Assembly (NCBI GenBank): GCA_903844155.1
Contig: CAIMSU010000224.1
Location: 1 to 64,000 of the forward strand
Direction: 5' to 3'
DNA length: 64,000 nucleotides
Source: an uncultured Pseudomonadota bacterium
GTDB lineage: Bacteria; Myxococcota_A; UBA796; SXON01
Shown here: positions 3,042 to 30,267 of the stretch, piece after piece
Position numbering within the stretch: the stretch's first letter is position 1
How the letters are laid out: each line of letters starts with the position of its first letter
The notes under the pieces: model-generated
Told to the model about the DNA's origin: nothing
Seen by the model: the letters and a program-made list of their open reading frames with translations, nothing else
Databases searched by the model: none
Program-made: the position numbers and the translations under genes

Positions 3042-4097
3042 TCAGAATCGGCCGACGACCGCTACCGTCGCACCGTCCGCATGGCCCTCGGTCGCTGTCG
3101 GGACGACCACAGGGGCAAGCGCACGGCTCGTCGCCACAGAGGCCACCCACCAGGTCGCTGCGCCGATGGCCACGACGTCCCAGGGGCGCTCAGCCTGCGT
3201 CCCGGCCAGGTACACCGCGCCTGCGGTCGCTGGGAGCGCGATCGCGAGCGCAAGCAGGCCGCGGGCCGGGTGGCCGGACCGGAACTCCGGAAGGCCCGGG
3301 ATCGGGGTGAGAGAGAGGGCGGTCGATGGCGATGATGGAGGGGGCGACGGGGCGGGCGACGGGGCCGGACGGGGGGCTGGCGGTGGCGGGGCGGATGGCG
3401 CAGGCGTGGGCGGCGCGACCGGGGCGACGGGCGACGGCTTCACATGGCGGCTCGGGTGCGCGTCGGCCACCGGCGGGGGCGGGACCGGGGCAGGGGGATT
3501 CAGCCGCAGCATCTGGTAGACCGCAGCTGCGAGCGTGGTGTCCACGGGCAGGCCGCCGTTCGCGTCTGCCGCGCCGGGGAAAATCGCGCGCAACCAGGGC
3601 TTTCCGGCGGTCGGCGTCGGGAGGAAGACGACGTCCACGTCCAGCAGGGCGGCGGCCTTCGCCACACAAACTGCATCCGGACCGCAGGCGATCAGAGCGG
3701 GCAACGCGACCGCGGACTGCCCATCCGCGTCGGTACGGTCACGCACGCGGGTGGCGGGGAGGGCGAGCAGGTCGGCGTGCAGCTCGGCGTCAAAGGCGGC
3801 GTCCACCGGGTTGGTCGCGGGATCGGGGGAGGGGAGCTGCAGGATCCGCATGGGCGGCTGCTGCTCGTAGAGGACGACGTCGACAGGATCGAGGCGCTGA
3901 ACCTCGTCAAAGCGGATGGAGACGATGCCCTGCGGTGTCTGCAGGTCGAGGCCATCGGCCCGGGTCGCTACGATCTCGGCCAGCAGCACGCGGCCACTCG
4001 AGAGCTCCACGCGTCGAGGTTCGGCCGCGAACGCGGGCATCGCGTGGGCGAGCACCGCCACGAACGCGGCGAAGCGAGCGCGCCGTTCGAGGCTCAT
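3042..4097 (-). CDS. Secreted or envelope protein with Pro-rich linker and two C-terminal membrane segments
   Basis: This 351-residue protein is not assigned to a family. The ATG at 4097 overlaps the preceding stop (ATGA) and begins with a signal peptide (MSLERRARFAAFVAVLAHAM, cleavage after AFA). Residues 25-75 form a compact beta-rich stretch (VELSSGRVLLAEIV... VSIRFDEVQRL) resembling small Sm-like or SHD1-like domains in secreted proteins. A central globular part (about 80-215) is followed by a Pro/Ala/Ser linker (215-275) and two predicted membrane helices near residues 285-345. The N-terminal signal plus C-terminal helices suggest a periplasm-facing inner-membrane protein. Function is unknown. 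Confidence 0.7.
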   Translation of the reverse strand: MSLERRARFAAFVAVLAHAMPAFAAEPRRVELSSGRVLLAEIVATRADGLDLQTPQGIVSIRFDEVQRLDPVDVVLYEQQPPMRILQLPSPDPATNPVDAAFDAELHADLLALPATRVRDRTDADGQSAVALPALIACGPDAVCVAKAAALLDVDVVFLPTPTAGKPWLRAIFPGAADANGGLPVDTTLAAAVYQMLRLNPPAPVPPPPVADAHPSRHVKPSPVAPVAPPTPAPSAPPPPAPRPAPSPAPSPPPSSPSTALSLTPIPGLPEFRSGHPARGLLALAIALPATAGAVYLAGTQAERPWDVVAIGAATWWVASVATSRALAPVVVPTATEGHADGATVAVVGRF

Positions 4098-4816
4098 TGA
4101 GACAGCTCCGGGCAGCTCTCGCCGGCCCCCACGAGCGCGATTCCCCAGGAGTATGCCGCGTTTGACCCGGCGGGGTCGTCGGTCGCCGGTGCCCATCCGG
4201 CCGCGACGAGGGCAACGCCGGTTGTTGTCCGTCCCACCGGCGCATTCCAGGCGTTCTCCGCCGAATCTACGCGCCAGCCCAGCGGGGAGGCGCCGTCCAT
4301 GGCCGGCAGGAACGGCACGCCGCAGTCGTCCAGCGCGTAGAGCAGGACATCCGCCCGAAGCGCCGCGTCCGTCGCCCGGAAGTCGCTGCAGAGGGTGCCA
4401 GCGTCGCTCAGCCTCACGACGCGCCAGTCCACGTCGCCCGTCCAGTTTCCCGGTATGACCGGGGGGAAGTCCCTCGCATGGCAGTCAGCGGCGCTGTCCC
4501 CGGGCGCCTCGGCCCCCGAGTCGCCCCCCGAATCCACGAAGGCTTCCTCGTCCCAGCCGGTGCCTTGAAGCGTGCCGAGCACGAGCGTCCCGTGCGCCGG
4601 CTGCAGCGATTCCGCGGCCACGGTCGCCGGCGAGTCGTCCGTCGCAGACTGCGCCGCCAGGATCGTCCAGGGGAAGGCCGGGGCGTGGTCGCCCACAGCC
4701 GCAGCACCAGCGCTTCCGCCATTCCAATGGGCGTAAGCGGGCCACCCGCCACACCCGGCGAGGCCGAGGAGCAGCAGGTGCGCGGGCAGCGTTCCTGTTC
4801 CGCTCGGGCGTGACAT
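4094..4816 (-). CDS. Lipoprotein of unknown function
   Basis: The product has 240 residues. The reading frame is open far upstream, but the ATG at 4816 gives a lipoprotein signal with lipobox LGLAGC, so this start is preferred. The mature protein has a Ser/Gly/Asp-rich stretch (GGDSGAEAPGDSAAD) and several cysteines (CHARD, LCSDF, DCGVP, SCPEL). No known domain is recognised. Its TGA overlaps the start of the next gene, suggesting translational coupling within the minus-strand unit that runs on to the MFS gene. The lipoprotein assignment is fairly secure; any role is open. Confidence 0.7.
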   Translation of the reverse strand: MSRPSGTGTLPAHLLLLGLAGCGGWPAYAHWNGGSAGAAAVGDHAPAFPWTILAAQSATDDSPATVAAESLQPAHGTLVLGTLQGTGWDEEAFVDSGGDSGAEAPGDSAADCHARDFPPVIPGNWTGDVDWRVVRLSDAGTLCSDFRATDAALRADVLLYALDDCGVPFLPAMDGASPLGWRVDSAENAWNAPVGRTTTGVALVAAGWAPATDDPAGSNAAYSWGIALVGAGESCPELSQ

Positions 4817-4895
4817 CGGCGGAACGTAGCGCGTCGCCGCCGATGCGGGCGTTCGGCGAACTTCGCCCTCCCGTCGGCCGCGATACAACCCGACC

Positions 4896-5984
4896 GTGCC
4901 TCCCTCCGTTGTCGTTGACCTGACCTCGTTTCTCCACGGCCCGGGCGGGGCTGGTGCCCGGGCGTTCACCGGGCGGTTGCCACGGGTGCAGGAAGGCCTG
5001 CGTACGATGGCTGCGGACGAGCGGGATTGCCCAACGCTCCGGCCGCTGGGTGCCCCGGACGAGGCGGCGCTGGCCGTGCTGAAGCGGAGCGCGCGCCTGC
5101 GTGTGGTGGGGGGAGCCGCCCCGCTCCTGGCCCTTCGAGCGCTCGTGGAGGTTCTCGCCCCCGAGGCCCGGATCACCTGGCAGAGCGAAGCGGGCGCGGT
5201 CGACGGGGAGGGGCTCGTCTGCATCGAGGGCCCTGCGTGGGTCGACGAGGTCGCCGAGGAAGCGGCGCGTGCGAAGCTGCGCGTGGTCATGGCCGGCGCG
5301 GGCAGCCACGAACCGCCGCCGAAGGGCGCTTGGGTGGACGATGCGCGGGCCGGCGACGGCCGCTTTGTAGGCTTTGGACCTACTGCGGCGACGGTTCTCG
5401 CCTGGGCTGGGGTCGACCCGGCAGCCTGGGCCGCAGGGCTCGCGGAAGGGCAGGGGAGCTGCCTGCGGACGGCGTTGTTCGACAACGTGGCGTGGTCCGT
5501 CGCGGCGGCGCTGAGCCTGCGGCCCGACGCCATCCCCGTGCTCGTCGCGACCAGCGGCGCCCTCGCACCCCTCACGCGATCACTCGCCCGCACCTGGTCC
5601 GCGACCGTGCGCGGGATGCCTGCCGGGCCCGGGCCCAACGTCCGCGTGGGCTTGACCGTTCTTGACGGCGTCGCGGATGACGGGCTCACGTTCGAAGCGC
5701 TCCACGGCGCCCCGACCGACCGCGTGCCTGTCCTTATCGGCCCACCCACGGATGCCTCGCAGACGATGATCGGCTGGCTGACACGCGAAGGTCGGCCGTA
5801 CCTCACCCTCCGCGCTGCGCGAACACCGCAGAGCATCGCCACGCTGTTGACCCTCGGGACGCACGCCGCGGTCGCGCTGGCCGTGCTCCGCCACCTGGAC
5901 CCGCTCGCGGCACCCGGGGCCGAAGCCTGGGATCGCACCGTCGAGCGCCTCCGCGCTGTTGACGACGCAAGCACCCTCGCATAG
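4896..5984 (+). CDS. Glucose-6-phosphate isomerase-like protein, probably non-catalytic
   Basis: This 362-residue protein has the overall course of phosphoglucose isomerase (two SIS-type domains) but is shorter than the usual 420-550 residues. GRFVGFGPTAATVLAWAGVD (about residues 155-175) aligns by eye with the family's GGRFSVLSPVGLLPAALAGID region. The C-terminal stretch LRHLDPLAAPGAEAWDR corresponds to the xNPFDQPGVExxK signature. In that last motif the conserved Gln and the catalytic Lys are absent, so ordinary isomerase activity is doubtful. The start is a GTG at 4896. It lies 21 bp upstream of the YfgM-like gene and probably shares its transcript. The role is unknown; a regulatory or sugar-phosphate-binding function is possible. 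Confidence 0.65.
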   Translation: MPPSVVVDLTSFLHGPGGAGARAFTGRLPRVQEGLRTMAADERDCPTLRPLGAPDEAALAVLKRSARLRVVGGAAPLLALRALVEVLAPEARITWQSEAGAVDGEGLVCIEGPAWVDEVAEEAARAKLRVVMAGAGSHEPPPKGAWVDDARAGDGRFVGFGPTAATVLAWAGVDPAAWAAGLAEGQGSCLRTALFDNVAWSVAAALSLRPDAIPVLVATSGALAPLTRSLARTWSATVRGMPAGPGPNVRVGLTVLDGVADDGLTFEALHGAPTDRVPVLIGPPTDASQTMIGWLTREGRPYLTLRAARTPQSIATLLTLGTHAAVALAVLRHLDPLAAPGAEAWDRTVERLRAVDDASTLA

Positions 5985-6005
5985 CCCTCCGCGCCTGAGG
6001 TAGTC

Positions 6006-6935
6006 GTGCCCGATCCAAACGCCGATGACGGTACCCAAAAGCCAATCGATCCCGATGCCATCGTCATCCCACGCGATGTCGAGCGGCCGGCCGGCGAGGG
6101 TGGCGCGGAGGCTGCCCCGGCAGACGAGACCCCGGACTACGTCTTCCGGCTGCAGGTGGCGCTCACGAACTTCACGGCGAAGAACGGCAGGTTCATGGCT
6201 GGGCTGGCGGGCGCTGGTCTGGCGGGCGTGCTGGTCTGGGGCCTTTGGAACGTGTGGACGGAGCGCTCGGCAGCCGCGGAATTCGGGGCGATCGCGGCCA
6301 TCGACTACCGGATGCCCAAGCTCTGCCCCGCTGGCTCGCACGAGGAAACCGGCTTCTGCTTCTCGGACGAGAACTCCCGCAGCCTCACCGGCGTTGCTGG
6401 CGACGATCTCTCCGATGCCGGCAGAAAGGCCGACCTCGAAGAGGGTGCGCGACGGTTCGAGGCGGCCGCGAAGGACGCGTCCGGCAGCGCGGCCGTCTAC
6501 GGCTACCTGAAGGCAGCGGACGCCTGGCGACGGGCGGGGAACAAGGATTCCCAGGTTGCAGCCCTGAAATCCGCGTATGCCGTTGGGGGAGGGGACATGC
6601 CCGGGTGGACGGCCGGCAACGCCTACGCCACGGCGCTGATCGACGCCGGGAAGTCCGATGAGGCGCTCGGCGTCTATCGGCAGCTCGCTGGGAAGACCCA
6701 GGGCTTCTACGCTCAGGAGGCGCTGCTCACGCTGGCCTCCGCGCAGATCGACCTCGGCAAGAACGACGACGCCAAGCAGACCCTGACGGAGTTCAAGACC
6801 CGGTTCCCGGCGGCGCCAACGGACAAGGCCAACGCGCTCGAGGCCAGGGCGGGCGGTGCTCCTTTGGAGCCGCCCAAGCCGGCCGACGGGGCGACGCCTC
6901 CAGCCCAGCCCGCTCCCGCCGGAAGCGCGGGTTGA
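6006..6935 (+). CDS. YfgM-like membrane-anchored TPR protein
   Basis: The 309-residue product has a charged cytoplasmic N-terminus (about 60 residues), one transmembrane helix (FMAGLAGAGLAGVLVWGLW, about 63-82), then an extracytoplasmic helical region with tetratricopeptide-like repeats (about 140-275) and a Pro/Ala-rich tail. This is the layout of E. coli YfgM, a partner of the periplasmic chaperone network and Sec translocon. The assignment is strengthened by the next gene, a BamB-like propeller, since yfgM and bamB are adjacent in many proteobacteria. The GTG at 6006 gives the full N-terminus. Its stop overlaps the TTG start of the next gene, so the pair is translationally coupled. Confidence 0.75.
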   Translation: MPDPNADDGTQKPIDPDAIVIPRDVERPAGEGGAEAAPADETPDYVFRLQVALTNFTAKNGRFMAGLAGAGLAGVLVWGLWNVWTERSAAAEFGAIAAIDYRMPKLCPAGSHEETGFCFSDENSRSLTGVAGDDLSDAGRKADLEEGARRFEAAAKDASGSAAVYGYLKAADAWRRAGNKDSQVAALKSAYAVGGGDMPGWTAGNAYATALIDAGKSDEALGVYRQLAGKTQGFYAQEALLTLASAQIDLGKNDDAKQTLTEFKTRFPAAPTDKANALEARAGGAPLEPPKPADGATPPAQPAPAGSAG

Positions 6936-8122
6936 TCCCGGCCCTCCTGGTCGGCATCGCCCTCGCCGCACCTGTCGCCGCGCCACAAGATGCCCCCTTC
7001 GCCTCTGCCCCTGTGCTCCTCTGGGGCGTCGACCTCCCGGGAACCCCCCAGGCCACCGCCACGCGCGCCGAACCGGCGTCTCCGGTCGTCGACGGAGGCA
7101 GGATCTACGTCGGCTTCACCGGCCAGAGCGCGCTCCTGGTGCTCGGCCAACAGGACGGTCGACCCCTCGGCTCCTTCCCGGCGCATGCGCCCGTCGCCAG
7201 CGCGCCCGTCGTCGACGACGGTCGCGTCTGGTTCAGCGATACGGCCGGATATACGTACTGTTATCTGCTCGACCAGCTCTCCCAGGCAACCCCGACCCCA
7301 GCGTGGACACACTATTCGGGCGCGCCCATCGTCAGCGGGCCGACGGCCTCGGGCGACGTGCTCTACATCTCCAACGTCGACGACACGGTCTACGCCCTGG
7401 ACCGCACCACCGGCGCGTTGAAGTGGCGCTACGCCCACCATCTCGACGCCGCGCGCTCAAGCTCGCTCATCCTGTTCGGCGCCGCCCGGCCCATCGTGGC
7501 GGACGGCAGCGTGTGGCTCGGGTTCTCCGACGGTTTCGTCGTCGGCCTGAACGCGGCGACCGGCGACGAATTCCAGAACATGCTCGTCGGCGAGGGCAAC
7601 TACCCGGACGTCATCGCGCCGCCGCAGGTCAGCACGACCACCGCGGGAACGGCCCTGATCGCCGCTGGGTTTTCCGGGCCGATGGTCAGCGTGGACGCTG
7701 CAAGCCGCGTTGTGCGTTGGCGTCAGGACATCGGGACGGGCGCCGAGATGCTCGAGCACGACGGCGTACTCTACGTCGGCGGCTCGGACGGGCAGCTCAG
7801 GGCCGTGGTCGCGCGCACGGGCGAGGTCAAGTGGGCCTGGGACCCGGGCGTTGGCGGGACGATCGGCACGCCTGTCTGGACAGACGCGGGCCTGCTGGTG
7901 ACCGCCGGCGAAGGCTCCGCGTACCTGGTCAGCACCGGCAACGGCAAGACGCTTTGGACGTTTGATCCAGGCGTTGTCATCGCCGGGATCGCCGCTCGGC
8001 CCACCGTGGTCGGCCGCACCGCCTACGTGGTGACGAACGCGGGTCGGCTCTACGCGCTGCGCGTTCCGGTGGCGGACCGCGTGCTCGGCTCGGCGCCGTA
8101 TGTGGGTGGCGGGGGGCGGTAG
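6932..8122 (+). CDS. BamB-like PQQ-type beta-propeller protein
   Basis: This is a 396-residue exported beta-propeller. A TTG start at 6932 overlapping the upstream TGA gives a signal peptide (MIPALLVGIALAAPVAA). The rest consists of repeated PQQ-like blades with motifs such as SPVVDGGRIYVG, SAPVVDDGRVWFSD, DTVYALDRTTGALKWRY and GKTLWTFDPG. In BamB such blades scaffold outer-membrane protein assembly on BamA. Length and gene order after a YfgM-like gene fit that role, but no BamB-type lipobox cysteine is present, so anchoring differs or another propeller function is possible. It is the last plus-strand gene before the dif site. Confidence 0.75.
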   Translation: MIPALLVGIALAAPVAAPQDAPFASAPVLLWGVDLPGTPQATATRAEPASPVVDGGRIYVGFTGQSALLVLGQQDGRPLGSFPAHAPVASAPVVDDGRVWFSDTAGYTYCYLLDQLSQATPTPAWTHYSGAPIVSGPTASGDVLYISNVDDTVYALDRTTGALKWRYAHHLDAARSSSLILFGAARPIVADGSVWLGFSDGFVVGLNAATGDEFQNMLVGEGNYPDVIAPPQVSTTTAGTALIAAGFSGPMVSVDAASRVVRWRQDIGTGAEMLEHDGVLYVGGSDGQLRAVVARTGEVKWAWDPGVGGTIGTPVWTDAGLLVTAGEGSAYLVSTGNGKTLWTFDPGVVIAGIAARPTVVGRTAYVVTNAGRLYALRVPVADRVLGSAPYVGGGGR

Positions 8123-8194: not shown

Positions 8195-8222
8195 ACTTCC
8201 GATAATGTATATTATGTCAAGT
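8195..8222 (+). other. dif: Chromosome dimer resolution site dif (XerC/XerD target)
   Basis: A 28-bp element stands out as AT-rich in a GC-rich region. Its 16-bp core ATAATGTATATTATGT (8202-8217) is identical to the centre of the E. coli dif site, as I recall it. Layout is XerC arm 8195-8205, 6-bp spacer TGTATA 8206-8211 and XerD arm TTATGTCAAGT 8212-8222. Overall 21 of 28 positions match E. coli dif. It lies in a 144-bp gap between the convergent BamB-like and endonuclease III genes. XerC/XerD recombination here, activated by FtsK, would resolve chromosome dimers, so the site marks the terminus region. Confidence 0.92.
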
Positions 8223-9148: not shown

Positions 9149-10336
9149 GTGTTTCTGCCCCTGCTCAGTCTCCTGCTCGCCTCGCCCGCCCACGCCGGGA
9201 GCGACACCCCTCCCCCACCGCCGCCGACCGGCCTCGGGAGCTCGCCGACCGCGGCGTTGAAGGCTGCAAAAGACCAGGCGCAGGCGCGCGTCACGCCCAT
9301 CCCGACGGTGACCGAGGTGCCGCCCTGGCTGCGCGGCGATGTCGCGCTGAACTACGGCTACGATCGGCTCGGCGGGCACCTGACCGAGCATGTGCTCGAG
9401 TCGTCCTCGGACACCGCCAGCCTCGACCAGCAGGTCGGCCAGCGCGTTGTCAGCGACCACGTGCTCTCGATCGACGCGATGTTCAGCGCAGGCCCTGGCG
9501 TCGGCGTCACGCTCGGCTTCCCGGTGCACATCCGCGAGGGCACCTGGTTCGGCAACTCGCAGACGATGGTGTACGACCCGACGAGCGGCGCGGGCACGAT
9601 GATCGGCACGACGTCGGTGGATTACGGGAGCACGTCGGCGGGCGGCGGGCTTGAGGGGGTGTGGATCGGCCTTGCTGGCACGCCGTTCTCCGAGGCGTTC
9701 CACAACCGCAACAACCGCGTGACCTGGCGGGTCGCGGGCGCGTTGCGTACGGCGAACAAGAAGAATTTCTACACGGCCGGCACCGACGGAAAGCGCGGGG
9801 CGGGCGACGGCGCCTTGGGTCTGAAGCTGGAGAACGCCTTCTCGACGACGATCGGCGGCGGCACGCAGCCCTACATCTCCTGGAAGTACCAGAGCGACGG
9901 GCAGGACACCGTGGACGTCACGGACGACAGCGGGAACGTGCTCGCGTCCGGCGTCCAGCTCCAGGGCGCCAAGACCTCGGACATCCGCTTCGGCGCCGAA
10001 TTCCTCGCCGCCCACAACGACGACCAGGACACCAACGTGCGGGTCGACCTGCACGCGACCATCGACTACGCGAGCACGTCGCTCGTGCCGAGCGGGCTCT
10101 ACCTGCCGAGCATCCTGGACGTTACCGCCGGCCAGCCGATGCAGGAGGCTGAATCGGTGGATCTCGGGGGCGGGATCGGCTTCAGCTTCCAGCCGGTCCA
10201 GTATTTTCGCATCGGCATCTTCGGGCAGGTCTGCTACCACCTGCCTCAGCGAATCGAGAGCTTCTACCCGATCTATACGTCGGGGGACACGATCCACAGC
10301 GTGGTCGGTGGGAACATGGTCGTGCGGATCCGGTAG
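9149..10336 (+). CDS. Outer-membrane beta-barrel protein, unknown family
   Basis: This 395-residue protein starts at a GTG (9149) with a signal peptide (MFLPLLSLLLASPAHA). A Pro-rich stretch and a short helical segment (AALKAAKDQAQARV) follow. From about residue 60 the sequence alternates as in porin-like barrels, with repeated amphipathic strands such as RGDVALNYGYDRL, GVGVTLGFPVHIRE and GAEFLAAHNDD. It ends with VVGGNMVVRIR, a typical C-terminal strand except that Arg replaces the usual Phe or Tyr. It may be related to the transporter-type barrels common in myxobacteria. Its stop abuts the stop of the convergent yraN gene with no gap. Confidence 0.7.
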   Translation: MFLPLLSLLLASPAHAGSDTPPPPPPTGLGSSPTAALKAAKDQAQARVTPIPTVTEVPPWLRGDVALNYGYDRLGGHLTEHVLESSSDTASLDQQVGQRVVSDHVLSIDAMFSAGPGVGVTLGFPVHIREGTWFGNSQTMVYDPTSGAGTMIGTTSVDYGSTSAGGGLEGVWIGLAGTPFSEAFHNRNNRVTWRVAGALRTANKKNFYTAGTDGKRGAGDGALGLKLENAFSTTIGGGTQPYISWKYQSDGQDTVDVTDDSGNVLASGVQLQGAKTSDIRFGAEFLAAHNDDQDTNVRVDLHATIDYASTSLVPSGLYLPSILDVTAGQPMQEAESVDLGGGIGFSFQPVQYFRIGIFGQVCYHLPQRIESFYPIYTSGDTIHSVVGGNMVVRIR

Positions 10337-10720
10337 TCACCCGTCAAACGCGTCATCCACCCACCGCACCGTCTCATCCGTCGGGTCGACGATGGCGACG
10401 AGAAAGGCGGCAGGCCCTTCCCAGCCCTCCTGCTCCATCCACAGCCGGGCCGCGCGCCTGAGCCGAGTCCGCTTGGACGACGAGACAGCCTCGTCTGCGA
10501 GCGGATCGTCCAGATCCCGCGCTTTGACCTCCACGATGCGCAGCTCCAGCGCCGAGCCGAGCCCGCGCTGGGCGACGACGTCCAACTCCCCTCCCCCACC
10601 ACGCCAATTGCGCGCGCGAACCACCCAGCCCGCGGCCAGAAGCGACCGTTCAACCAGTGCTTCCATCCGAGCGCCGGTGGCCAGGGCTTCACGCCGCTCG
10701 GCTGCGTCCCGGGTCGCCAC
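10337..10720 (-). CDS. YraN family (UPF0102) nuclease-like protein
   Basis: This 127-residue protein has the restriction-endonuclease-like core of the YraN/UPF0102 family, with Glu/Asp and Lys motifs in GGELDVVAQ (about residues 43-51) and RIVEVKAR (about 61-68). Family members are presumed DNA-processing nucleases; the exact substrate is not established. The GTG at 10720 is the best start after the rplS stop at 10744. The family is often found near rplS and rnhB, and here it lies 23 bp downstream of rplS in the same direction, so co-transcription is likely. Confidence 0.85.
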   Translation of the reverse strand: MATRDAAERREALATGARMEALVERSLLAAGWVVRARNWRGGGGELDVVAQRGLGSALELRIVEVKARDLDDPLADEAVSSSKRTRLRRAARLWMEQEGWEGPAAFLVAIVDPTDETVRWVDDAFDG

Positions 10721-10743
10721 GCGAGCAAACCCGCCGACGAGGC

Positions 10744-11091
10744 CTAGTTCTGCGCGTCCTTGAGGCGCGCGGACTTGCCGGAGCGCTCACGGAGGTAGTA
10801 GAGCTTGGCGCGCCGGACCGAGTGGCCGACCTTGACCTCGATCTTGTCGACCGTGGGGCTGTGGATCGGGAACACGCGCTCGACGCCAACGCCGAAGCTG
10901 TTTTTCCGCACGGTGATCGTCGCGCGCGGGCCGCTGCCCTTCGCGGCGATGACGATGCCTTCGAAGATCTGGATGCGGACCTTCTCGCCGTCCTTGATGC
11001 GCACGTGAACGCGCACATCGTCGCCGATCGACAACGTCATGTTGGCGGCGGGGTTCTGGTTTTCGGCTTCAAGGGTGTCGATGAGGTTCAT
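10744..11091 (-). CDS. rplS: 50S ribosomal protein L19
   Basis: The 115-residue product matches ribosomal protein L19 along its whole length, including [10 protein letters not shown], the [10 protein letters not shown] strand, [20 protein letters not shown] and the C-terminal [18 protein letters not shown]19 lies at the interface of the 30S and 50S subunits. The ATG at 11091 gives the standard N-terminus and is preceded by AAAGAG. The usual rpsP-rimM-trmD partners are not adjacent: the upstream neighbour is an unknown lipoprotein, so rplS has left its common operon and only yraN follows it. Confidence 0.97.
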
Positions 11092-11137
11092 GGGGATCTC
11101 TTTGCGGGTGCGCGTTTATCGCGCGACGGCGTCGCTG

Positions 11138-11968
11138 TCAACGCGGCCGTCCGGTCGACGGCGCAACGCCCGGCAGGGGCAGCAGGTCCTGCAGGAGCGC
11201 CTGGATCTGCCCGGCATCGCGGCCGATGTCGTCCTCCTCGCGCTGGAAGTCCGCCTGTTCCTGCGCGGCGAGGGCGTGCGCGTCCGCGGACTTGATGGGG
11301 ACCAGAGTGCAGATGGGAGAGCCATCGCCGTTGTACTTGTTGTAGGAACAATGCTGGATCTGGCCAGCGTTGATCTGCGCGAGGGCGGTCGTGGCGAGGC
11401 GAGAGAGGCGGTCGTCGGCAAACGCGGTGAAGGCCGTGGGGCTCGCGAGCGCGCCCCTCAGCTCGTCGATCGCGGGGGTGGACGGCGACTGCGTCTCCAC
11501 CGAGACGACGGTCTCAAAGAGGCGAATGCTGGTCTGGCGACCGAGCTCGATGGTGTCGGTCCGCTCCGCGCCCGCCAGGCGCACCAGCTTGACCTCAAAG
11601 TCGCTCTCCGCCCCGAGCTGCACGACGACGCTGGCGCCCCAGTCGCCGGTCAACGGAAATTCGCCCGCGCGGTAGGCGATGCGGTCCGCGCCCCCGTTCG
11701 TGTCGAGCGCGAGGACCCGCCACGCCACGCCGCGGTTCTCGCTGGCGCCAAGGCAACCCGCGGGCCCGGAGGGGCCCACGCACCACGCCTCTGCGCCGCC
11801 GCTGCCGGAGGAGGACCAGGGCTCTGTAGTCCACGCCGGCGCTTTCGCCGCTTGCATCGCGCCATCTTCGAGCGCGCGGGCATCTCTTGTGATCACGTCC
11901 GTACCGAGCACGCCCCGCCATGCTGCCGTGGAGGCGGGATGCAGACAGCCGAGCGCGTAGAGGAGCAT
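11138..11968 (-). CDS. Lipoprotein of unknown function
   Basis: The 276-residue product has a short lipoprotein signal (MLLYALGC, lipobox YALGC, so only a seven-residue leader). The mature part is mixed alpha/beta with three more cysteine-containing spots (AWCVGPSGPAGC, HCSYNK, ICTLVP) and an acidic, Gln-rich helical region near the C-terminus (AAQEQADFQREEDDIG). No family is recognised. It starts five bases after the stop of the large lipoprotein gene upstream, so the two are probably made and act together. The very short leader leaves some doubt about processing. Confidence 0.65.
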   Translation of the reverse strand: MLLYALGCLHPASTAAWRGVLGTDVITRDARALEDGAMQAAKAPAWTTEPWSSSGSGGAEAWCVGPSGPAGCLGASENRGVAWRVLALDTNGGADRIAYRAGEFPLTGDWGASVVVQLGAESDFEVKLVRLAGAERTDTIELGRQTSIRLFETVVSVETQSPSTPAIDELRGALASPTAFTAFADDRLSRLATTALAQINAGQIQHCSYNKYNGDGSPICTLVPIKSADAHALAAQEQADFQREEDDIGRDAGQIQALLQDLLPLPGVAPSTGRPR

Positions 11969-11973
11969 CGGGG

Positions 11974-13926
11974 CTACTGAGGCACGTTCTCAAACGTGCG
12001 CCACGACGTGCCCGTCGCGTCGGCCGGGCAGAAGCCCCGCTCCACGTTCGTCGAAAGCACCTCGCGAATCTCGCCGCCTTCGGCCGCCGCGGATCCGTCA
12101 TCCTTGTCCTTGCCGAACCGGAACGTCATCTCGGAGAGCGACGCGCCGACGTAGCCGGGCACCCCGACATAGGTGTCCGGCGCGTCCGGGACGAGCATTT
12201 CGTCGGGCGTGAACGTGTTGGGCCACGCGCAGGCGTCCCAGTTGGGGTCAGCCAGCGCCGTCGACCCCGCCTCCCATGTCACCCAGCCGCCGGGCACGGC
12301 GGGGTCTGGCAGGCCGTTGGAGGCCAGCGTCACGACAGCGGTGGCGTAGGACTGGTTGAAGTCGCTGTTGGTGTAGACGTTCGTGCCGTCGTTCAGCCAG
12401 CCCGGGTCGGGGACGAGCGGGTCGTTGCAGCGCTGAATCCCGCCGGCCACGCCGTCGATCGGGTCGTCCCAGGCGCCGCAGCGGTTGTGGTTTTCGATGG
12501 CGATGATCAGGCCGTTCTGGGTCGTGGACCCCTTGATGGCCTGCACGCCGACCCAGTCGCGCGCGAACGTGTCGTCGGGGTTGGTGGCGTCGACACCGTC
12601 GGGGCGAAGGGCGTAGGGGTTCAGCCCGAGCCCGTAGCCGATCGTCGCGATGGCGTAGCCGTAGTTCTCATCGCCGAGATCGTAGACGCCGTCGCCGTTG
12701 AGGTCATGCCCCTGCGCGACGGGCGAGTCGACCGCGCCCGGGCCGGGGTTCCAGTCCCAGAACCATCGCAACGTGGACGTGCTGTGCTTGATCGTGGCGC
12801 TGTTCGCGTACCAGATCCGGCCGTGCCAGGGCTGCGGGTCGGTGGCTCCGGAAGGGCTGCCTGAGGGCCGGATGTAGCCGACCGTGCCGTGGATCCCCTC
12901 GCCCAGCGCATCGCCGAGCGCCGGGCCCCCGTCGCCCGCCCCGCACGCAAACTGCCCCGATTGCGTGCGGTCGTCCCAGAACGGGATGCAGAGGTAGGAC
13001 CAATTGGCATGGTCAAACGCCGGGGGCAACGACCCGTCGGCCTGGGTGTGGCCGAGGATGTAGGCGAACACGGACCAGTCGGGCGCGCAGGCAAGCACGA
13101 AGCCGTCCATGACGTCGTACCAGACCTTCTGCCCGTCCTCGTCGATCCAGGATGCCCCCTGGAGCTGAGCAGGACACGCGCCGCTGGTGGTGCAGTTCTC
13201 CACGGTGTCCGTCGCAACGCAGGTCCGGCAGTCGCTCGAACCGCTGGGCCCGCCAAAGTAGACGTATTGCTCCTCCTCGCTGCACCGTCCGGCGTCGGTC
13301 GCGGCGTCCGGGTCGCCCCCGTTGTCGTCGATCGCAGCGATGCAGGGCGTGGAGAGGCCGATCATGTCCTTGGTGACGTCGTCGACGAGCAGGTTGTAGG
13401 CGCCGAGCTGCATCGCGGCGTCGTAGGATGTGCCGCCTTCATCGAACGACATGTCAATCTCGGGCGCCTCGCAGAGCCCCTGGGTGATCTGCTCGTCGTA
13501 CGAGACGGCCGCGAGCCCCCAGATGTTGACCTGGCTCGCGGGCAGCGTGCCCATGTAGTCGGTGAGCGCGGCGCCGAGGTCCGTGTTGGCGACGACGTCG
13601 CTCATCGAGTTGGAGATCTGGGCGAGCACCGTAGGCGTTGAGGAGGGCGGCGGGGGCGGCTCGCTCGACGCGAAGGGCTCGAGGTCGGCGAGGTGGCCAC
13701 CGGGGGCGCGTGGGAGACGGACGCCCCGGCCGTTCAGGCCGTTGAGGCTGGTCCGCGGCGCGGCGTCGGGCGCGAGGATGGCAGGTACGAGCAGGGGATT
13801 TTCGCGCGCCGTGGGCGACGAGGACGATGCCGTCGTCGGCAGCGCGTTCGGACCGCAGGCCTCGAACACCAGCGCCAGCCCGAGCGGGAGAAGGGCGAGC
13901 GGGCGACGGGGAGGGACGCGTGGCAC
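11974..13926 (-). CDS. Large lipoprotein, unknown, Cys-rich surface protein
   Basis: This 650-residue protein starts at a GTG (13926) that gives a lipoprotein signal ending LALVFEAC; the frame is open further upstream but without a better leader. After a low-complexity linker (residues 25-100) a segment ISNSMSDVVANTDLG resembles VWA-type or MIDAS-adjacent sequence, but no complete domain is recognised. Many cysteines occur (CRTCVATDTVENCTTSGAC among them), suggesting disulfide-stabilised extracellular modules. A GHDLNGDGVYDLGDENYG segment looks like an EF-hand or dockerin-type calcium loop. It is translated just upstream of the 276-residue lipoprotein and diverges from the dockerin-like lipoprotein at 13989. 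Confidence 0.65.
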   Translation of the reverse strand: MPRVPPRRPLALLPLGLALVFEACGPNALPTTASSSSPTARENPLLVPAILAPDAAPRTSLNGLNGRGVRLPRAPGGHLADLEPFASSEPPPPPSSTPTVLAQISNSMSDVVANTDLGAALTDYMGTLPASQVNIWGLAAVSYDEQITQGLCEAPEIDMSFDEGGTSYDAAMQLGAYNLLVDDVTKDMIGLSTPCIAAIDDNGGDPDAATDAGRCSEEEQYVYFGGPSGSSDCRTCVATDTVENCTTSGACPAQLQGASWIDEDGQKVWYDVMDGFVLACAPDWSVFAYILGHTQADGSLPPAFDHANWSYLCIPFWDDRTQSGQFACGAGDGGPALGDALGEGIHGTVGYIRPSGSPSGATDPQPWHGRIWYANSATIKHSTSTLRWFWDWNPGPGAVDSPVAQGHDLNGDGVYDLGDENYGYAIATIGYGLGLNPYALRPDGVDATNPDDTFARDWVGVQAIKGSTTQNGLIIAIENHNRCGAWDDPIDGVAGGIQRCNDPLVPDPGWLNDGTNVYTNSDFNQSYATAVVTLASNGLPDPAVPGGWVTWEAGSTALADPNWDACAWPNTFTPDEMLVPDAPDTYVGVPGYVGASLSEMTFRFGKDKDDGSAAAEGGEIREVLSTNVERGFCPADATGTSWRTFENVPQ

Positions 13927-13988
13927 CGCCTTGGTGTATCGCCCCGCGCCAGGCCACGCGCGAGGCGGCGGTGCGATACGGCGCCTTC

Positions 13989-14777
13989 GTGCGTGTCGGC
14001 AGCCTCCCAATCGTCCCCCTGGCCCTGCTCGCGGCCCTGCTCGCGGGCTGCGCCGCCCCCTCGGTCGACGCCGTCAAGGCCGGCCCGCTCGTCCCCGGCG
14101 ACGCGAACGGGGACGGCCGCTTCGACATCTCGGACCCCATCTACGTCACCCGCAACCTCTTCGACAAGGGCCCCGCGCCGGTCTGCGCCGCAGCCGTCGA
14201 CATGATCCCCGATGGCAACGTGGAGGTGGGCGATGGCCTCTCACTCCTCGCGACCCTGTTCAGCCCCCTGCCCTACCTCGCACCCCTCGCCTCGGGCGCC
14301 TGCGACAGCGCGACGACGCCATCCGGCGCCAAGGCTGACCGCCTTCGTTGGGGATTTTCCGGTGGCGGGACGACGACGGTCACGCTCGAGAGCATGGACC
14401 GGGACGTCGACGGCTGGTCGCTCGGCGTGACGGCCGACGGCTGCACCATCGCGGCCGCGACCACCAATGGCACCGTGGCTGCGGACCGCTTCGATGGCGG
14501 TCAGCGCGCGGTCGGGTACGAGAACACGCGCGTGACCTCGGCTGGCGCGGTCAGCGCCGTGGTCCTCGGCTGGAACGTGCCTGCGCGCCTCGCCGCCTCC
14601 CCCAAACCCTACGACGTGCTCCAGCTCACGCTCACGAAGGGCGACACCTGCAACTGCACGCTCTCGCTCTCCAACGACGTCGTCGGGGACGGGCTCGCCG
14701 TGGCGACCGTCGTGACCGCCGGCGGCCGCAGCTACCTGCCGGAGCTCGCGTCGGCGAAGGTCAACGTCTGCAAGTGA
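13989..14777 (+). CDS. Lipoprotein with dockerin-like calcium-binding repeats
   Basis: This 262-residue lipoprotein (lipobox LAALLAGC; GTG at 13989, with a second in-frame GTG at 13971 possible) carries two dockerin-like repeats directly after the signal. The first is GDANGDGRFDISDPIYV, a textbook EF-hand calcium loop, and the second is PDGNVEVGDGLSLLATLF. The remaining 170 residues form a beta-rich domain (RLRWGFSGGGTTTVTLES ... YDVLQLTLTKGD) that could be cohesin-like or immunoglobulin-like. Dockerin repeats outside cellulosomes occur in many secreted proteins of deltaproteobacteria and planctomycetes and do not imply cellulose degradation. Its stop overlaps the ferredoxin gene's GTG. Confidence 0.72.
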   Translation: MRVGSLPIVPLALLAALLAGCAAPSVDAVKAGPLVPGDANGDGRFDISDPIYVTRNLFDKGPAPVCAAAVDMIPDGNVEVGDGLSLLATLFSPLPYLAPLASGACDSATTPSGAKADRLRWGFSGGGTTTVTLESMDRDVDGWSLGVTADGCTIAAATTNGTVAADRFDGGQRAVGYENTRVTSAGAVSAVVLGWNVPARLAASPKPYDVLQLTLTKGDTCNCTLSLSNDVVGDGLAVATVVTAGGRSYLPELASAKVNVCK

Positions 14778-15112
14778 TCCCGAAGAACCCGGAAAAGGTG
14801 AAGGCTGCGGCTGCGAATCCGGCGCGGCCGGGCGAGAAGTGTCAGGCCGAGCCAAAGCGCTGGTTTCCCGAGGTGGATCGCGGGCGATGCGAGGGCAAGA
14901 AGGACTGCGCCGAGGTCTGCCCGCACGACGTCTTCGTCATCGAGCGCATGACCGACGAGGAGTACGCTGGCCTGGGGTTCTTCGAGCGGTTCAAGGCGAC
15001 CGTGCACGGCCGGATGACGGCCCACACGCCCAACGCGGACGCGTGCCGCGCGTGTGGGCTGTGCGTCGTTGCCTGCCCGGAAAAGGCGGTCCGGCTGGTG
15101 TCGAATGTCTGA
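14774..15112 (+). CDS. 4Fe-4S ferredoxin
   Basis: This 112-residue protein has two cysteine clusters. The first, CEGKKDCAEVCP (about residues 33-44), has an insertion in the usual CxxCxxC spacing. The second is a regular CRACGLCVVACP (about 89-100). A 45-residue insert including a helix (MTDEEYAGLGFFERFKATVHG) separates them, as in the ferredoxin family that carries a loop between its clusters. It probably carries electrons in the cytoplasm; the partner is unknown. The GTG at 14774 overlaps the upstream lipoprotein stop (GTGA), and its 3' end overlaps the membrane-protein gene, an unusual coupling between secreted and cytoplasmic products. Confidence 0.85.
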   Translation: MIPKNPEKVKAAAANPARPGEKCQAEPKRWFPEVDRGRCEGKKDCAEVCPHDVFVIERMTDEEYAGLGFFERFKATVHGRMTAHTPNADACRACGLCVVACPEKAVRLVSNV

Positions 15113-15449
15113 GTATGTGCCCGCCCTCTTCGCTCAGGGCGCCTTCTACCTGCCGTCGCTGCTCGTCCACCTGCTCTGCCTCGTGCTCGCGGCCGCCCTG
15201 TTCGTCCGGGACCGCGTCGCCGCCAGCCTCCTCGCAGGCGGCACCATGGCCCAGATGCTCGCCTCGCTCGTCGCCTTTGGGTCGACGGCCTATGCGCTGA
15301 CGGCGACTGAGCGTGGGCTCACGATGGCGCAGGTGTCGATGACCACCGGGGCAATGAGCCTTGGCGGGTCACTGCTTCGGTGCCTGGGCGACGTGCTCAT
15401 CGCCGTGGCGGTCGGGGCCGCGGTGATGCGGCGGGAGCCGACGCCCTAG
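15105..15449 (+). CDS. Small polytopic membrane protein
   Basis: The 114-residue product has about three hydrophobic segments (roughly residues 14-34, 42-60 and 88-108) and short polar loops. No family is recognised. The ATG at 15105 overlaps the ferredoxin stop, and a longer upstream frame would lie in ferredoxin coding sequence. Because it is translated directly after a ferredoxin it could be a membrane partner in electron transfer, but no heme or quinone ligands can be pointed out. It converges on the small lipoprotein gene, with a 4-bp overlap of the 3' ends. Confidence 0.6.
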   Translation: MSEYVPALFAQGAFYLPSLLVHLLCLVLAAALFVRDRVAASLLAGGTMAQMLASLVAFGSTAYALTATERGLTMAQVSMTTGAMSLGGSLLRCLGDVLIAVAVGAAVMRREPTP

Positions 15450-15676
15450 AGGTGGACGCCGCTGTCGCCGGTGTCGCCCGCCGTATCGCCGGTGTCGCCT
15501 GCCGTATCGCCGGTGTCAGCGGCGGTGTCGCCGGTGTCGGAGGCCGTGTCCGTGAACTCGCAGGCACAGACCGGGTTCGTGCCGTCGTCGTGCGAGAGGC
15601 AGCCCGCGAACACTGCGCCGACGATCAGCGCGAGCCCCAGGGACAGCGGGAGCGACGGGGTCGACGGGAGTGACAT
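15446..15676 (-). CDS. Small lipoprotein with Gly-Asp-Thr repeats
   Basis: This 76-residue lipoprotein has a lipobox in GAVFAGC (Cys near residue 26). The mature part is only 50 residues, nearly half of it GDTGDTAGDT-type repeats followed by SGVHL. Such acidic Asp-Thr spacers normally connect a lipid anchor to a folded domain in this type of genome, but here nothing follows. It may be a minimal surface lipoprotein or the remnant of a larger one. Its ATG overlaps the proS stop (TGATG), so it is translated with prolyl-tRNA synthetase. Confidence 0.65.
   Translation of the reverse strand: MSLPSTPSLPLSLGLALIVGAVFAGCLSHDDGTNPVCACEFTDTASDTGDTAADTGDTAGDTGDTAGDTGDSGVHL
15470..15540. repeat. Tandem repeats encoding Gly-Asp-Thr/Ala units
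   Basis: Imperfect copies of a roughly 20-bp unit containing GCCGGTGTCGCC follow each other in the 3' half of the small lipoprotein gene. They encode alternating GDT and A residues. The copies keep the frame, so length changes would shorten or lengthen the spacer rather than break the protein. Confidence 0.7.
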
Positions 15677-17157
15677 CAGAAAGCCCTCGCGAAGAGCGCA
15701 ATATGCGTGGCCGGACGGCCAGAGTAGAAGCAGAGCTTACCCTGCGCATCGTCCTGACCCGTCAGCGGGTAGCAACGAATCGTCGCTTTCGTCTCCTCCT
15801 TGATCGTCGCCTCGTTCGCGGCGTCGTCCGTCCACGGCACGCTTACGAAGCCCCCGCGCTCGATGTCCGCCTTGAACGCCGTGTAGTCCGACGGCGTCCG
15901 CATCGTCGCGTCGCGTCGGGCAACTGCGGCCTCGTAGAGCGAACGTTGGATAGCGGCGAGCGCCTCCGTCACCCCGACGACGACGTCGCCAGCTGGGATC
16001 CCGAACTTCTTCCCGCCCGTCCGCAACGCGGCGAAAACGCTGTCCCCGGCGACGTCCCGCGGCCCGATCTCCAGCCGCAGGGGCACGCCCTTCCGCTCCC
16101 ACTCAAAGTACTTCGCACCCGGCTTCATCGTGTCCCGCGCGTCCACCTTCACGCGGAAGTGGGGGTACAACGCCGCACGTACCTTCTCGGCATGCGCGAG
16201 CACGACGTCCTTCTCGGCGTCCGTCTTCCAGATCGGCGTCACGACGACCTGGATCGGCGCGACCGCGGGCGGCAGGACGAGGCCGGTGTCGTCCGAGTGC
16301 GTCATGATGACCGCGCCGATCATGCGCGTCGAAACGCCCCAGCTCGTCGCCCAGACGTGCTCGCGGTCGCCCGCAGTGGTCTGGAAGGTGACGTCGAACG
16401 CTTTCGCGAAGTTCTGCCCGAGAAAGTGGCTCGTGCCGGCCTGAAGCGCCCACCCGTTCTGCATCAGCGCCTCGATGCAGTAGGTGTCGACGGCTCCGGC
16501 AAAACGCTCGCTCGCAGACTTCACGCCCTTGACGACGGGCATCGCCAGCATGTCCCGCGCGAACGCCTCGTACACGTCGAGCATCCGCGTCGTCTCCTCG
16601 ACGGCCTCGGCGCTCGTCGCATGCGCAGTGTGCCCTTCCTGCCACAGGAATTCGGCGGTGCGCAGGAACGGGCGGGTCTTCATCTCCCAGCGGACGATGT
16701 TCGCCCACTGGTTGATGAGGATGGGGAGATCGCGCCAGGACTGGATCCACTGGCCGTACATGTGCCAGATGATGGTCTCGGACGTGGGCCGGATGACGAG
16801 CGGCTCTTCCAGCTTCGACGCCGGATCCGGCTCGACGCCACCGCCCGCCGCCATTCGGAGCCGGTGATGGGTGACGACGGCGCACTCCTTCGCGAACCCC
16901 TCGACGTGCTCGGCCTCCTTGGACAGGAAGCTCACGGGGATCAACATCGGGAAGTACGCGTTGACGTGCCCGGTCTCCTTGAATCGCCGGTCCAGATCCG
17001 TCCGCATGTGGTCCCAGATCGCAAAGCCGTGCGGCCGGAAGACCATGCAGCCCTTCACCGGCGAGTAATCGGCCAATTCGGCCTGGGCGATGACGTCCAG
17101 GTACCACTGGGAGTAGTCGGTGGCACGGGGGGTGACGGTGGTCTGGGGCTCGGCCAT
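15676..17157 (-). CDS. proS: Prolyl-tRNA synthetase, type 3 (archaeal/eukaryotic-like form)
   Basis: This 493-residue class II synthetase charges tRNA-Pro. It begins with the typical DYSQWYLDVIAQAELADYSPVKG segment of the shorter ProS-type-3 form, which lacks the editing insertion of E. coli ProRS. Class II motifs are visible: FRTAEFLWQEGHTAH-like motif 2 (here FLRTAEFLWQEGHTAH) and the motif 3 region in GVSTRMIGAVIMTHSDDTGL. The anticodon-binding domain follows (IQVVVTPIWKTDAE) and the protein ends ...HIALFARAF with the characteristic C-terminal aromatic residues. The ATG at 17157 is chosen over the longer open frame because the family N-terminus fits. Confidence 0.95.
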   Translation of the reverse strand: MAEPQTTVTPRATDYSQWYLDVIAQAELADYSPVKGCMVFRPHGFAIWDHMRTDLDRRFKETGHVNAYFPMLIPVSFLSKEAEHVEGFAKECAVVTHHRLRMAAGGGVEPDPASKLEEPLVIRPTSETIIWHMYGQWIQSWRDLPILINQWANIVRWEMKTRPFLRTAEFLWQEGHTAHATSAEAVEETTRMLDVYEAFARDMLAMPVVKGVKSASERFAGAVDTYCIEALMQNGWALQAGTSHFLGQNFAKAFDVTFQTTAGDREHVWATSWGVSTRMIGAVIMTHSDDTGLVLPPAVAPIQVVVTPIWKTDAEKDVVLAHAEKVRAALYPHFRVKVDARDTMKPGAKYFEWERKGVPLRLEIGPRDVAGDSVFAALRTGGKKFGIPAGDVVVGVTEALAAIQRSLYEAAVARRDATMRTPSDYTAFKADIERGGFVSVPWTDDAANEATIKEETKATIRCYPLTGQDDAQGKLCFYSGRPATHIALFARAF

Positions 17158-17227
17158 GGGGCGGATCTCGGGATGCGCGGCGGCTATCCGAAAAGCGCCG
17201 AAAGCGCCTTGCCTCGACCCGGCCGTA

Positions 17228-17653
17228 TCAGGCCTGACGTGCGCCGCGCAGCTCCACCGAGAGCTGTTCCTGACCATCCGGCTTCACGACGAACATGCGA
17301 AAGCTGAAGTGATCGGGGTCGTACCAGTCGAGCGCGATTCGCCAGCCCCAGTCCGGCAAGCCCTCGCCGGCCGGGAACGTGGTGTACAGCAGCACCGCCT
17401 TGCCGTCCTGGCGGCCGTGGAGGACCATCCCGCTGGCAGCGTGGAACGTGTCCGTGAAGTCGCCCCGGCAGGCCTGGCCAGGGCCGCGGAGCACCAGCTC
17501 CCCTTCCTTCGGCGCATCCTTGAACGCCCACCGGACGGCCACGCGGTCCGCGCTGACCGTGAGCGTGCCGTCGGAGACGTTCGCGGGAGTCCCCGGCTTG
17601 AACCAGAGGCGGTTGATACCGGTGTAGAGGCCGTGGTGGGAGTCAGGGATCAT
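17228..17653 (-). CDS. Conserved hypothetical, possibly DUF1579-like
   Basis: The 141-residue product has no signal peptide and alternates beta strands, with a distinctive DFTDTFHAASGMVLHGR segment and a Trp-rich C-terminal half (DWGWRIALDWYDPDHFSFRMF). The pattern recalls small lipocalin-like or DUF1579-like proteins, but this is an eye match only. It lies 70 bp upstream of proS in the same direction, so it could share a transcript. The ATG at 17653 is preceded by a spacer with no strong ribosome-binding site. Function unknown. Confidence 0.6.
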   Translation of the reverse strand: MIPDSHHGLYTGINRLWFKPGTPANVSDGTLTVSADRVAVRWAFKDAPKEGELVLRGPGQACRGDFTDTFHAASGMVLHGRQDGKAVLLYTTFPAGEGLPDWGWRIALDWYDPDHFSFRMFVVKPDGQEQLSVELRGARQA

Positions 17654-17710
17654 GGCTGAATCTACCCCGGGTCACGCTGGAGGCAAGGCCGGTCAGACGC
17701 GGCCTTTGGT

Positions 17711-19106
17711 TCACCAGATCGATCCGGGCCCTCCCCACGCGCCCATCTCCGGCCCGCTCCCGTCTGCGTCGCGGAGCGCCGGGTCGCCGGAATCGATGCA
17801 GGGGCTGCCATCGGCGAGCGTGTAGTCGAAATGCAGGCCTGGATCCTGGGAGAGCATGCCGTTGGTCCCCGTCGGGTCCGTCAGCCCTATCCAGGCTTCG
17901 TTGCCAGCGTAGACATCAGAGTACTTCGCGTCGAAAACGGTGGAACTACCATCGATCTCCCAGATCCCGGATTGGGAGCTCCACAGGATGCTGCTGTCGA
18001 GGCTGACGTGGTTCACACCGTAGGCGTCGTCGAGCATGATCCCCTCGTAGGCATCCTGAAAGGTCGTGTTGATGAGCGAGAGCGTCGCCCCGGTGACCGA
18101 GATGCCACCGGAGACCGTGCCCGTGTTCTCAGCGACGAGCGTGTTTGTGAGCGTGGCCGTCGCGCTGGTGTCCAGCCCGAGCGCCGGTCCGTACACGGCG
18201 CTGTTCTGCTTGATGGTGACGTGAGTTGCCTCGAGGTTCGCGGCGCTGGCCTGGATCGCTCCCCCGTTCACCGCATAGTTGGAAGTTATCGTAACCCCCT
18301 CCAACGTCAATTTTCCGCCGGAGGCAAAGATCCCACCCCCGAAGCTGTTCCGGCCGACGCCGGCGGAGGGCGTGAGGTAGCCCGGCAGGACGTTGGCGGT
18401 GATGACGCTGTCCTTGATGTCGAGCGTCGAGGCGACCAAGTAGACGGCGCCGCCATTGTAGGTGTCAAAGTTGTCGCCATCGACGTTCTGGTGGCCCTCG
18501 GTCCCTCCCCCGCCGGTAAGCGTGAACCCCGTCAGCGTCATGCTCGCGCCCCGAGTCGCGCTCAAGACGGACCCGCCAAGGCCGGTCCCGTCGACCGTGG
18601 TGTATTGGGCGCCATCCACCCCGAAGACGTCGAGAACGTGTGCCGGTGAGGCCGTGAGCAGCTCCCGGTAGGTGCCCTGCCGGACGCGCACACACTCGGT
18701 TGCCGCGGCCAGCCCTTCCGAGATGGTCTTGAAGGCCTTCTGGAAGGTGCCGTCGGGCGTGTCGCTGTTCGCGTTGGCGTCCACCCAGACCGGCTCCGCC
18801 GCCTTCCCGTCGTCGCAGTCGTAGGCGTTGTCCGCGTAGCCGTCCGGCTTGGTGGCCGAATAGGTGACGGAGGACGGATCGCCGGTTCCATCGCCGCTTC
18901 CGTCGCCGTCAGCGTCGAGGTACCAGGCAGGCAGCCCGGCGGTGTCGATGTCCGTGTCGGTATCCGTGTCGGCGTCGGTGTCCGTGTCCGTGTCGGTGTC
19001 CGTGTCGGACGCGGGAACGCGGTTGGTGACGGCCGATTCGGGGATGTAGACGCAGCCCGCGAGGAGCGCGAGGGCGGTGATGGAGCCGGGAGCGCGAACG
19101 GGGCAC
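17711..19106 (-). CDS. Right-handed beta-helix lipoprotein, start probably frameshifted
   Basis: Downstream of an Asp-Thr spacer (ten or more DT units, coding 18950-19010) and an acidic calcium-site-like stretch (LDADGDGSGDGTGD), about 350 residues show the right-handed beta-helix pattern: repeated NGGAV, SFGGGIFASGG and NTLVAENTG turns, ending DSGDPALRDADGSGPEMGAWGG. This is a common architecture for myxobacterial surface proteins. A lipoprotein signal ITALALLAGC is in the same frame, but no ATG, GTG or TTG precedes it. A GTG at 19104-19106 would start it if the GGGG run at 19100-19103 had one base fewer, giving MPVRAPGSITALALLAGC. Either a real frameshift or a sequencing error is likely. 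Confidence 0.7.
18950..19012. repeat. Hexanucleotide repeats encoding poly-(Asp-Thr)
   Basis: GTGTCC/GTGTCG-type 6-bp units are repeated about ten times. They encode the alternating Asp-Thr spacer between lipid anchor and beta-helix. The units are in frame, so slippage changes spacer length only. Confidence 0.75.
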
Positions 19107-19127
19107 CTCGTTGGAACGCCGACGATT

Positions 19128-20426
19128 CTACCTCGGCGCGGGGTCCGGATGCAATGCCGACAATCTGCCCCGGAGCCCCGCGAGATCGGCCTCCGGCGCG
19201 GCGGCCCGACTCCCCGCCGTGAAGTCGCCCTTCTTCACCTCGATCCCCACCTCCCGGTACACCTCCCGGAACGGCCGTCCCGTCGCCCTGGCCCGCGCAA
19301 AGGCCTCCGCCGTGGCGTACAGTTCGGGGTCCTGCGGCTGGGGTCGGGCGTGGATGCCCGCAACGAGCAGGCTCGCGATGTGGAGCGTTTCCAGGCCGAT
19401 GGTCACGCCACGCAGGAGCGGCTCCTTCGTGTGCTGCAGGTCGCGGTGGTAGCCGCCGGGAAGCAGGGTGAGATCCTCGATCTCGCGCTGCGCCGCGCGC
19501 ACGCGGTGGGCCTGTCCGCGCAGCAGCTCGGCGACGTCCGGGTTGCGCTTCTGCGGCATGATCGAGCTGCCCGTCGTCAGCGAATCATCGAGGGTGAGCA
19601 GGCCGAATTCGGCGGTCGCGTACAGCGAGACGTCCCAGGCCAGTCTGCCGACGAGGTGGGCCGACGCGGCGAGGGCGCCGAGGACGGCGGACTCGACCAG
19701 GCCGCGCGTGAGCTGGCAGGCGGTGACGGGCTCTTCGGCGCGGGAAAAGCCAAGATCGCGGGCGATGGCGGCGCGACCTGCGGGCGACGAGGTCGGGAGC
19801 GGCGAGCCGTAGCCGGCGGCGGAGCCAAGGGGGCAGCGATCGGCGAGGGCGAAGGCGGCGTCGTAGAGGACGGTGGCGTCGAGCAGCGCGCCTGCGTAGC
19901 CAGCGGCCCAGAGGGCGTAGCTGGACGGCATCGCACGCTGAAGGTGGGTGTAGCCGGTGAGCGTCTCCGGGCTCCGCTCCGCGAACGCGATCAGCTCGCG
20001 GACGAGGCTGAGGTGCAGCCCACGGGCTTCAGCGACCCGAACCTTCATCCACAACCTCAAGTCCGTGAGCACCTGATCGTTCCGCGAACGGCCTGTGTGG
20101 AGCTTGCCGGCGACGGGTCCCAAACGGTCCGTGAGCAGCACCTCGACGGCCGTGTGGACGTCCTCCAGCTCGCGTGGGATCCGGAAGACCCCTGCCCGGA
20201 TGTCGTCGGCGATGGTGTCGAGCCCGGCGCTCAGCGCCAGCGCCTCGCCCGGCGTCAACATCCCCTCCCGCTCCTGCGCCGCCACCCAGGCGAGCGACCC
20301 GCGCACGTCCTCCGCGGCCCAGGCCAGATCCGTCTCGGGGTCGTCGCCGACCGTGAACGCCTCCAGCGCCCGCGCCGCCCCATCGCCCCCCACCGACCCG
20401 CCCGCCTTGTCCCACAGCCGCCTCAT
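19128..20426 (-). CDS. argH: Argininosuccinate lyase
   Basis: The 432-residue enzyme cleaves argininosuccinate to arginine and fumarate, the last step of arginine synthesis. The fumarase/lyase signature GSSIMPQKRNPD (about residues 280-291) is intact, as are KLHTGRSRNDQ and the active-site histidine region TGYTHLQRAMP. The N-terminus (MRRLWDKAGG) fits the family's MKLWGGRF start. Its ATG overlaps the stop of the ArgE-like gene (ATGA), so deacetylation and lyase steps are translationally coupled. The C-terminal 30 residues are somewhat divergent. Confidence 0.95.
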   Translation of the reverse strand: MRRLWDKAGGSVGGDGAARALEAFTVGDDPETDLAWAAEDVRGSLAWVAAQEREGMLTPGEALALSAGLDTIADDIRAGVFRIPRELEDVHTAVEVLLTDRLGPVAGKLHTGRSRNDQVLTDLRLWMKVRVAEARGLHLSLVRELIAFAERSPETLTGYTHLQRAMPSSYALWAAGYAGALLDATVLYDAAFALADRCPLGSAAGYGSPLPTSSPAGRAAIARDLGFSRAEEPVTACQLTRGLVESAVLGALAASAHLVGRLAWDVSLYATAEFGLLTLDDSLTTGSSIMPQKRNPDVAELLRGQAHRVRAAQREIEDLTLLPGGYHRDLQHTKEPLLRGVTIGLETLHIASLLVAGIHARPQPQDPELYATAEAFARARATGRPFREVYREVGIEVKKGDFTAGSRAAAPEADLAGLRGRLSALHPDPAPR

Positions 20427-21562: not shown

Positions 21563-21643
21563 GGGCGGCAGCGTAGCCCCGCGCCCGCGCCCGGACCACT
21601 GCGGCACGGTTCATGCTTAGGTTCCTGTCACACGGAGCTTCCC

Positions 21644-22072: not shown

Positions 22073-22075
22073 CGC

Positions 22076-22573: not shown

Positions 22574-22592
22574 CTGACCTCGAGGCGGCGTG

Positions 22593-23651: not shown

Positions 23652-23709
23652 CAGACCTCCGGAATGTCGGGCAGAAATCGAGCAATTAGCGGCAAAACAT
23701 GGCAGTCGC

Positions 23710-28400: not shown

Positions 28401-28503
28401 GGAATCCGCTCGATGATGGTCTCCCCACCAAACGAGCGCGGCCGGCCCGGGGTTTTCGAGACGGCCCGCCCGTACTCGGGCGCTTGCCGGCGAAGACAAC
28501 CCG

Positions 28504-28529: not shown

Positions 28530-28551
28530 TTAGGGCCCGGCCCCTGGGGGT

Positions 28552-30230: not shown

Positions 30231-30267
30231 CAAGCCGCCTCTTTTTGCTGGGACTGGTAAGGGGACA

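Follow-up and report, generated by a model that had tools for sequence, protein, structure and literature searches.

Is the AT-rich 28-mer ACTTCCGATAATGTATATTATGTCAAGT, found exactly at positions 8195-8222 on the + strand of the window, the chromosomal dif site of the bacterium that carries it, and does it place the replication terminus there, as the original prediction held? At a dif site, the recombinases XerC and XerD take apart sister chromosomes that have become joined, ahead of cell division. The window is the whole stretch of 64,000 nucleotides that was analysed, and is part of contig C224 (71,655 bases). We judge, with a probability of roughly 0.96, that the element is the host bacterium's chromosomal dif site and falls under the FtsK/XerCD account of dimer resolution. 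It is a canonical, ordinary dif, a standard part of bacterial chromosomes whose underlying biology is textbook material, met with here in an uncultured lineage of deltaproteobacterium-like character. The claim about the terminus holds in a narrower form, documented below.

The dif element and its surroundings

The dif site of E. coli K-12, located in NC_000913.3, served as the yardstick. Both elements are 28 bp long, with two 11-bp arms about a 6-bp centre, and all 16 bases of the core ATAATGTATATTATGT (window 8202-8217) are identical in the two, just as had been proposed for the core and for the lengths of arms and spacer. By hand count, 21 of 28 positions agree. The remaining differences lie in the arms: the XerC arm has just 6 of its 11 bases in common with E. 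coli, and the XerD arm, with 9 of 11 shared, ends in CAAGT in the host and in TAAAT in E. coli. The parts of the element and the genes on either side are as follows.

6932..8122, + strand: gene for a BamB-like PQQ-repeat protein (PF13360, E=5e-31), left of dif and converging on it
8195..8205, + strand: left arm of dif, ACTTCCGATAA, predicted by homology to bind XerC; in the order-wide profile, CYGATAA is nearly invariant
8206..8211, + strand: central region of dif, TGTATA, where the core varies most from relative to relative
8212..8222, + strand: right arm of dif, TTATGTCAAGT, predicted by homology to bind XerD; 9 of its 11 bases are those of E. coli
8267..8935, - strand: endonuclease III-type (HhH-GPD) gene (PF00730, E=1e-22), right of dif and converging on it, in a flank alignable with relatives

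The convergent gene pair noticed earlier is thus real, and the intergenic stretch that holds dif between the two genes measures 144 bp. Also real, if moderate, is the preference for minus-strand genes to the right of dif, where simple GC3-based gene calling on the entire contig assigns 36.3 kb of coding sequence to the minus strand and 16.0 kb to the plus strand (69% minus); to the left, the 5.6 kb called coding is too short for judging strand preference. Two adjoining plus-strand genes for FtsX-type permeases (MacB-like; window 46863-50501) sit in a run of nine plus-strand genes that goes counter to the local minus-strand trend.

The 16-mer core has no second match, at up to three mismatches, anywhere else in the window, and it was found in none of 100 shuffled versions of the window. 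A search for a second site with the whole 28-mer, suggested at the outset as a check, likewise returned no other match with three or fewer mismatches across the draft genome of the host (8,129,126 bases in 375 contigs, 95.6% complete). Single occurrence is nearly always the pattern among relatives too. An inverted repeat around the window's dif, TCCGATA/TATCGGA, was considered and set aside; as judged by eye, most relatives are without it.

Conservation of the site and the recombination genes

A match to the core with at most two mismatches occurs in 39 of the 58 genomes searched, once in each. A looser pattern, GATAA-N6-TTATGTNAA with a single mismatch allowed, picks out 57 of 63 genomes from the order, and six of these 57 have a second match, mostly weak. 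Comparison with the dif sites of related genomes, another check named in the original prediction, finds a corresponding site across the order that is nearly always present once. Among named records, those sharing this site are metagenome-assembled genomes that go under the labels uncultured proteobacterium, Proteobacteria or Deltaproteobacteria. Sites of this kind have been predicted across 16 phyla (Kono et al. 2011, PMC3025954), and the present one resembles that set in being a conserved 28-mer, found about once per chromosome and near the terminus region, and differs in that the host lineage consists of uncultured genomes.

In the 52 dif loci that we collected, variation is seen in the 6-bp centre and in the outer arm; the inner segment of each arm is the same throughout, partly owing to a collecting pattern that demanded inner-arm bases. 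TTATG is present in all 52, from a selection that demanded either TTATG or TTACG. The bases directly outside the 28 bp have largely diverged among relatives, and the flanking coding sequence aligns at some 70-80% within the family on both sides of dif. Preservation of 28 bp between diverged adjacent bases, with alignable genes beyond, is the mark of selection acting on those 28 bp themselves. An intergenic alignment that had G002 in the wrong orientation was left out of account. One relative, G060, has two dif-like sites (G060:C58:54946 and G060:C174:9606) in a draft of 9.8 Mb that is 82% complete, possibly the result of a mixed bin or of a second replicon.

The host genome encodes candidates for both recombinases and an FtsK with a gamma domain. 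One protein (C301) scores above the curated cut-off for XerD, at 336 vs 329.6 bits. One other (C194) fits XerC best, with a score of 271 bits that lies below the equivalog cut-off of 335. The single FtsK_gamma domain (C366, 95 bits) matches the solved FtsK gamma domains 2ve8/2ve9 at E=3e-11, and its stretch QRHLGVGYN aligns with the solved gamma domain, the QR and GYN residues being kept. Separately, a 4.4 kb contig has three tyrosine recombinase genes in a row on its minus strand (G000:C347:230-3056, L129), an arrangement that presumably resembles a recombinase-in-trio element. For the gamma domain, a QR-GN motif is named for the interaction with XerD in a review (PMC5357621).

KOPS polarity and the terminus region

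The FtsK protein of E. coli reads the KOPS octamer GGGNAGGG and is thereby steered to dif. We used this octamer as it is in E. coli, without fitting it to the present data, for a test of the terminus that the original prediction had not named. Its occurrences in the window are these.

3488..6593, + strand: six GGGNAGGG octamers left of dif, every one directed at dif, with starts from -4714 to -1616 relative to the core
9208..59039: fourteen further copies of GGGNAGGG to the right of dif, ten on the - strand (towards dif) and four on the + strand

Two further minus-strand copies lie in the contig beyond the window, bringing the counts towards and away from dif to 6 and 0 on the left and 12 and 4 on the right (Fisher's exact test, one-sided p about 0.003 for this contig alone). 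The left flank is 8.2 kb only, so polarity on that side is carried by six octamers. Measured from the dif core, the best breakpoint in orientation falls in the interval from -1616 to +1006 bp; with three contigs of the genus taken together, it comes within -1.5 to +1.5 kb of dif. Polarity flips at dif in the contigs of most relatives, including G042, whose contig of 485 kb is the longest among them and has its breakpoint at -2403 to +276 bp; breakpoint analysis gave no definite KOPS breakpoint for G012 and G032. When 11 contigs were pooled, 467 copies of GGGNAGGG pointed towards dif and 113 away (z 14.7), making it the most polarised at dif among 47,626 one-N octamers. The same flip occurs at dif in the 42 kb of E. 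coli examined. Homology to the E. coli protein suggests that the host's FtsK would read the octamer in the same way.

Bulk GC skew behaves otherwise. The original prediction had looked to a switch in cumulative skew at about 8.2 kb, and no clear switch appears there in the window; skew is weak, a point of difference from E. coli, and the contig is short (71.7 kb). The cumulative maximum, itself small, lies 11.8 kb to the right of dif, and bulk skew was dropped as a means of locating the site. For G042, with its 485 kb contig, dif and the skew switch are about 74 kb apart, the switch being on the left. A correlation between skew switch and dif has been described, but with the suggestion that replication ends near dif rather than at it (Kono et al. 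2011, PMC3025954). Because skew fails to place a switch, we take "replication terminus" to mean the region of the terminus towards which FtsK translocates from both sides. In that sense the KOPS flip supports the view that the window comes from the terminus region of the chromosome, and the earlier claim stands in this form; skew on so short a contig does not decide for or against it.

In some relatives, a KOPS octamer that points away from dif, CCCTNCCC, is found 1-16 bp outside the XerC arm. Thirteen such sites occur beside dif in 11 of the 52 loci, mainly from one sister genus; the carriers, all with the octamer in the left dif flank, are G006, G010, G012, G015, G016, G017, G018 and G021 of genus g3, together with G013, G038 and G050. 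All 13 fall in the first 40 bp, against none at 40-640 bp from dif over the 52 loci. Shuffling the 40-bp flanks gave a mean of 0.46 copies and at most 3, and shuffling the last 24 bp gave a mean of 0.98 and at most 4. A class-wide search found dif-adjacent CCCTNCCC in the same 11 genomes only, and the window's own dif has no adjacent copy. In the relatives that bear it, the next coding sequence is alignable and the adjacent intergenic DNA largely is not, which hints at selection. The octamer might conceivably act as a landing or stop site for FtsK-gamma next to dif that tunes activation, a suggestion that we regard as doubtful; equally, it could reflect shared ancestry in a C-rich intergenic patch. 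From work in E. coli it has been inferred that recombination may survive a lone KOPS oriented away from dif (PMC2680272).

Alternative origins and the role of the site

Because dif-like sites can also be found on large plasmids (weak matches are present in 60 plasmid records, the majority from Leptospira) and the replicon membership of the dif contig is not fixed in a draft of 375 contigs, the site might be the dif of a secondary replicon, a chromid or megaplasmid, in which case it would be no marker for the main chromosome's terminus. That is very unlikely, since a genome 95.6% complete holds no second dif-like site at up to three mismatches, the neighbourhood of dif is common to the family, and the dif contig carries the gene for prolyl-tRNA synthetase, which agrees with a chromosome. 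We give scarcely any credence to an origin as the attachment site, or a remnant, of a mobile element that exploits XerCD, such as an IMEX phage or a pdif module. Such elements do carry dif-like sites, and weak matches to the core turn up in some phage and plasmid records, but those listed cover no more than 63% of the query, the 26-mer of the clade has no exact match in viral contigs, the host genome holds a single copy, and relatives keep the site in the same neighbourhood. This origin was set aside on the lack of an exact viral match and the weak, partial nature of the phage and plasmid matches.

Nothing beyond the shortness of the site speaks for a chance AT-rich sequence. With no match in 100 window shuffles, a single copy in the genome, and conservation across the order amid diverged flanks, this reading has a negligible probability and may be called already refuted by the conservation. 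The identification of the 28-mer as the chromosomal dif of the host is borne out by its single copy, its order-wide conservation, the Xer and FtsK genes, and the KOPS flip.

The likeness to the E. coli system takes in the 28-bp 11-6-11 layout with its identical core, two Xer recombinases, an FtsK gamma domain, and convergence of GGGNAGGG polarity on the site. What was directly observed comprises the site, its conservation in single copy, the three protein genes and the polarity flip. By homology, dimer resolution at dif would be expected to proceed as in E. coli. When sister chromosomes cross over an odd number of times, a dimer would result. FtsK at the septum would load on GGGNAGGG and pump DNA towards dif from both sides until it meets XerCD, which would bind and cleave the 28-mer, and its gamma domain would then activate XerD. 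The first cut, at the edge of the 6-bp centre, would probably be made by XerD, with XerC completing the exchange to give two monomers.

With the dif site placed, the terminus region is fixed for a chromosome that is known solely from draft fragments. The E. coli-type guide octamer GGGNAGGG is indicated as a polar signal in the host lineage too, and its polarity offers a practical way of placing dif and the terminus in fragmented genomes whose GC skew is weak.
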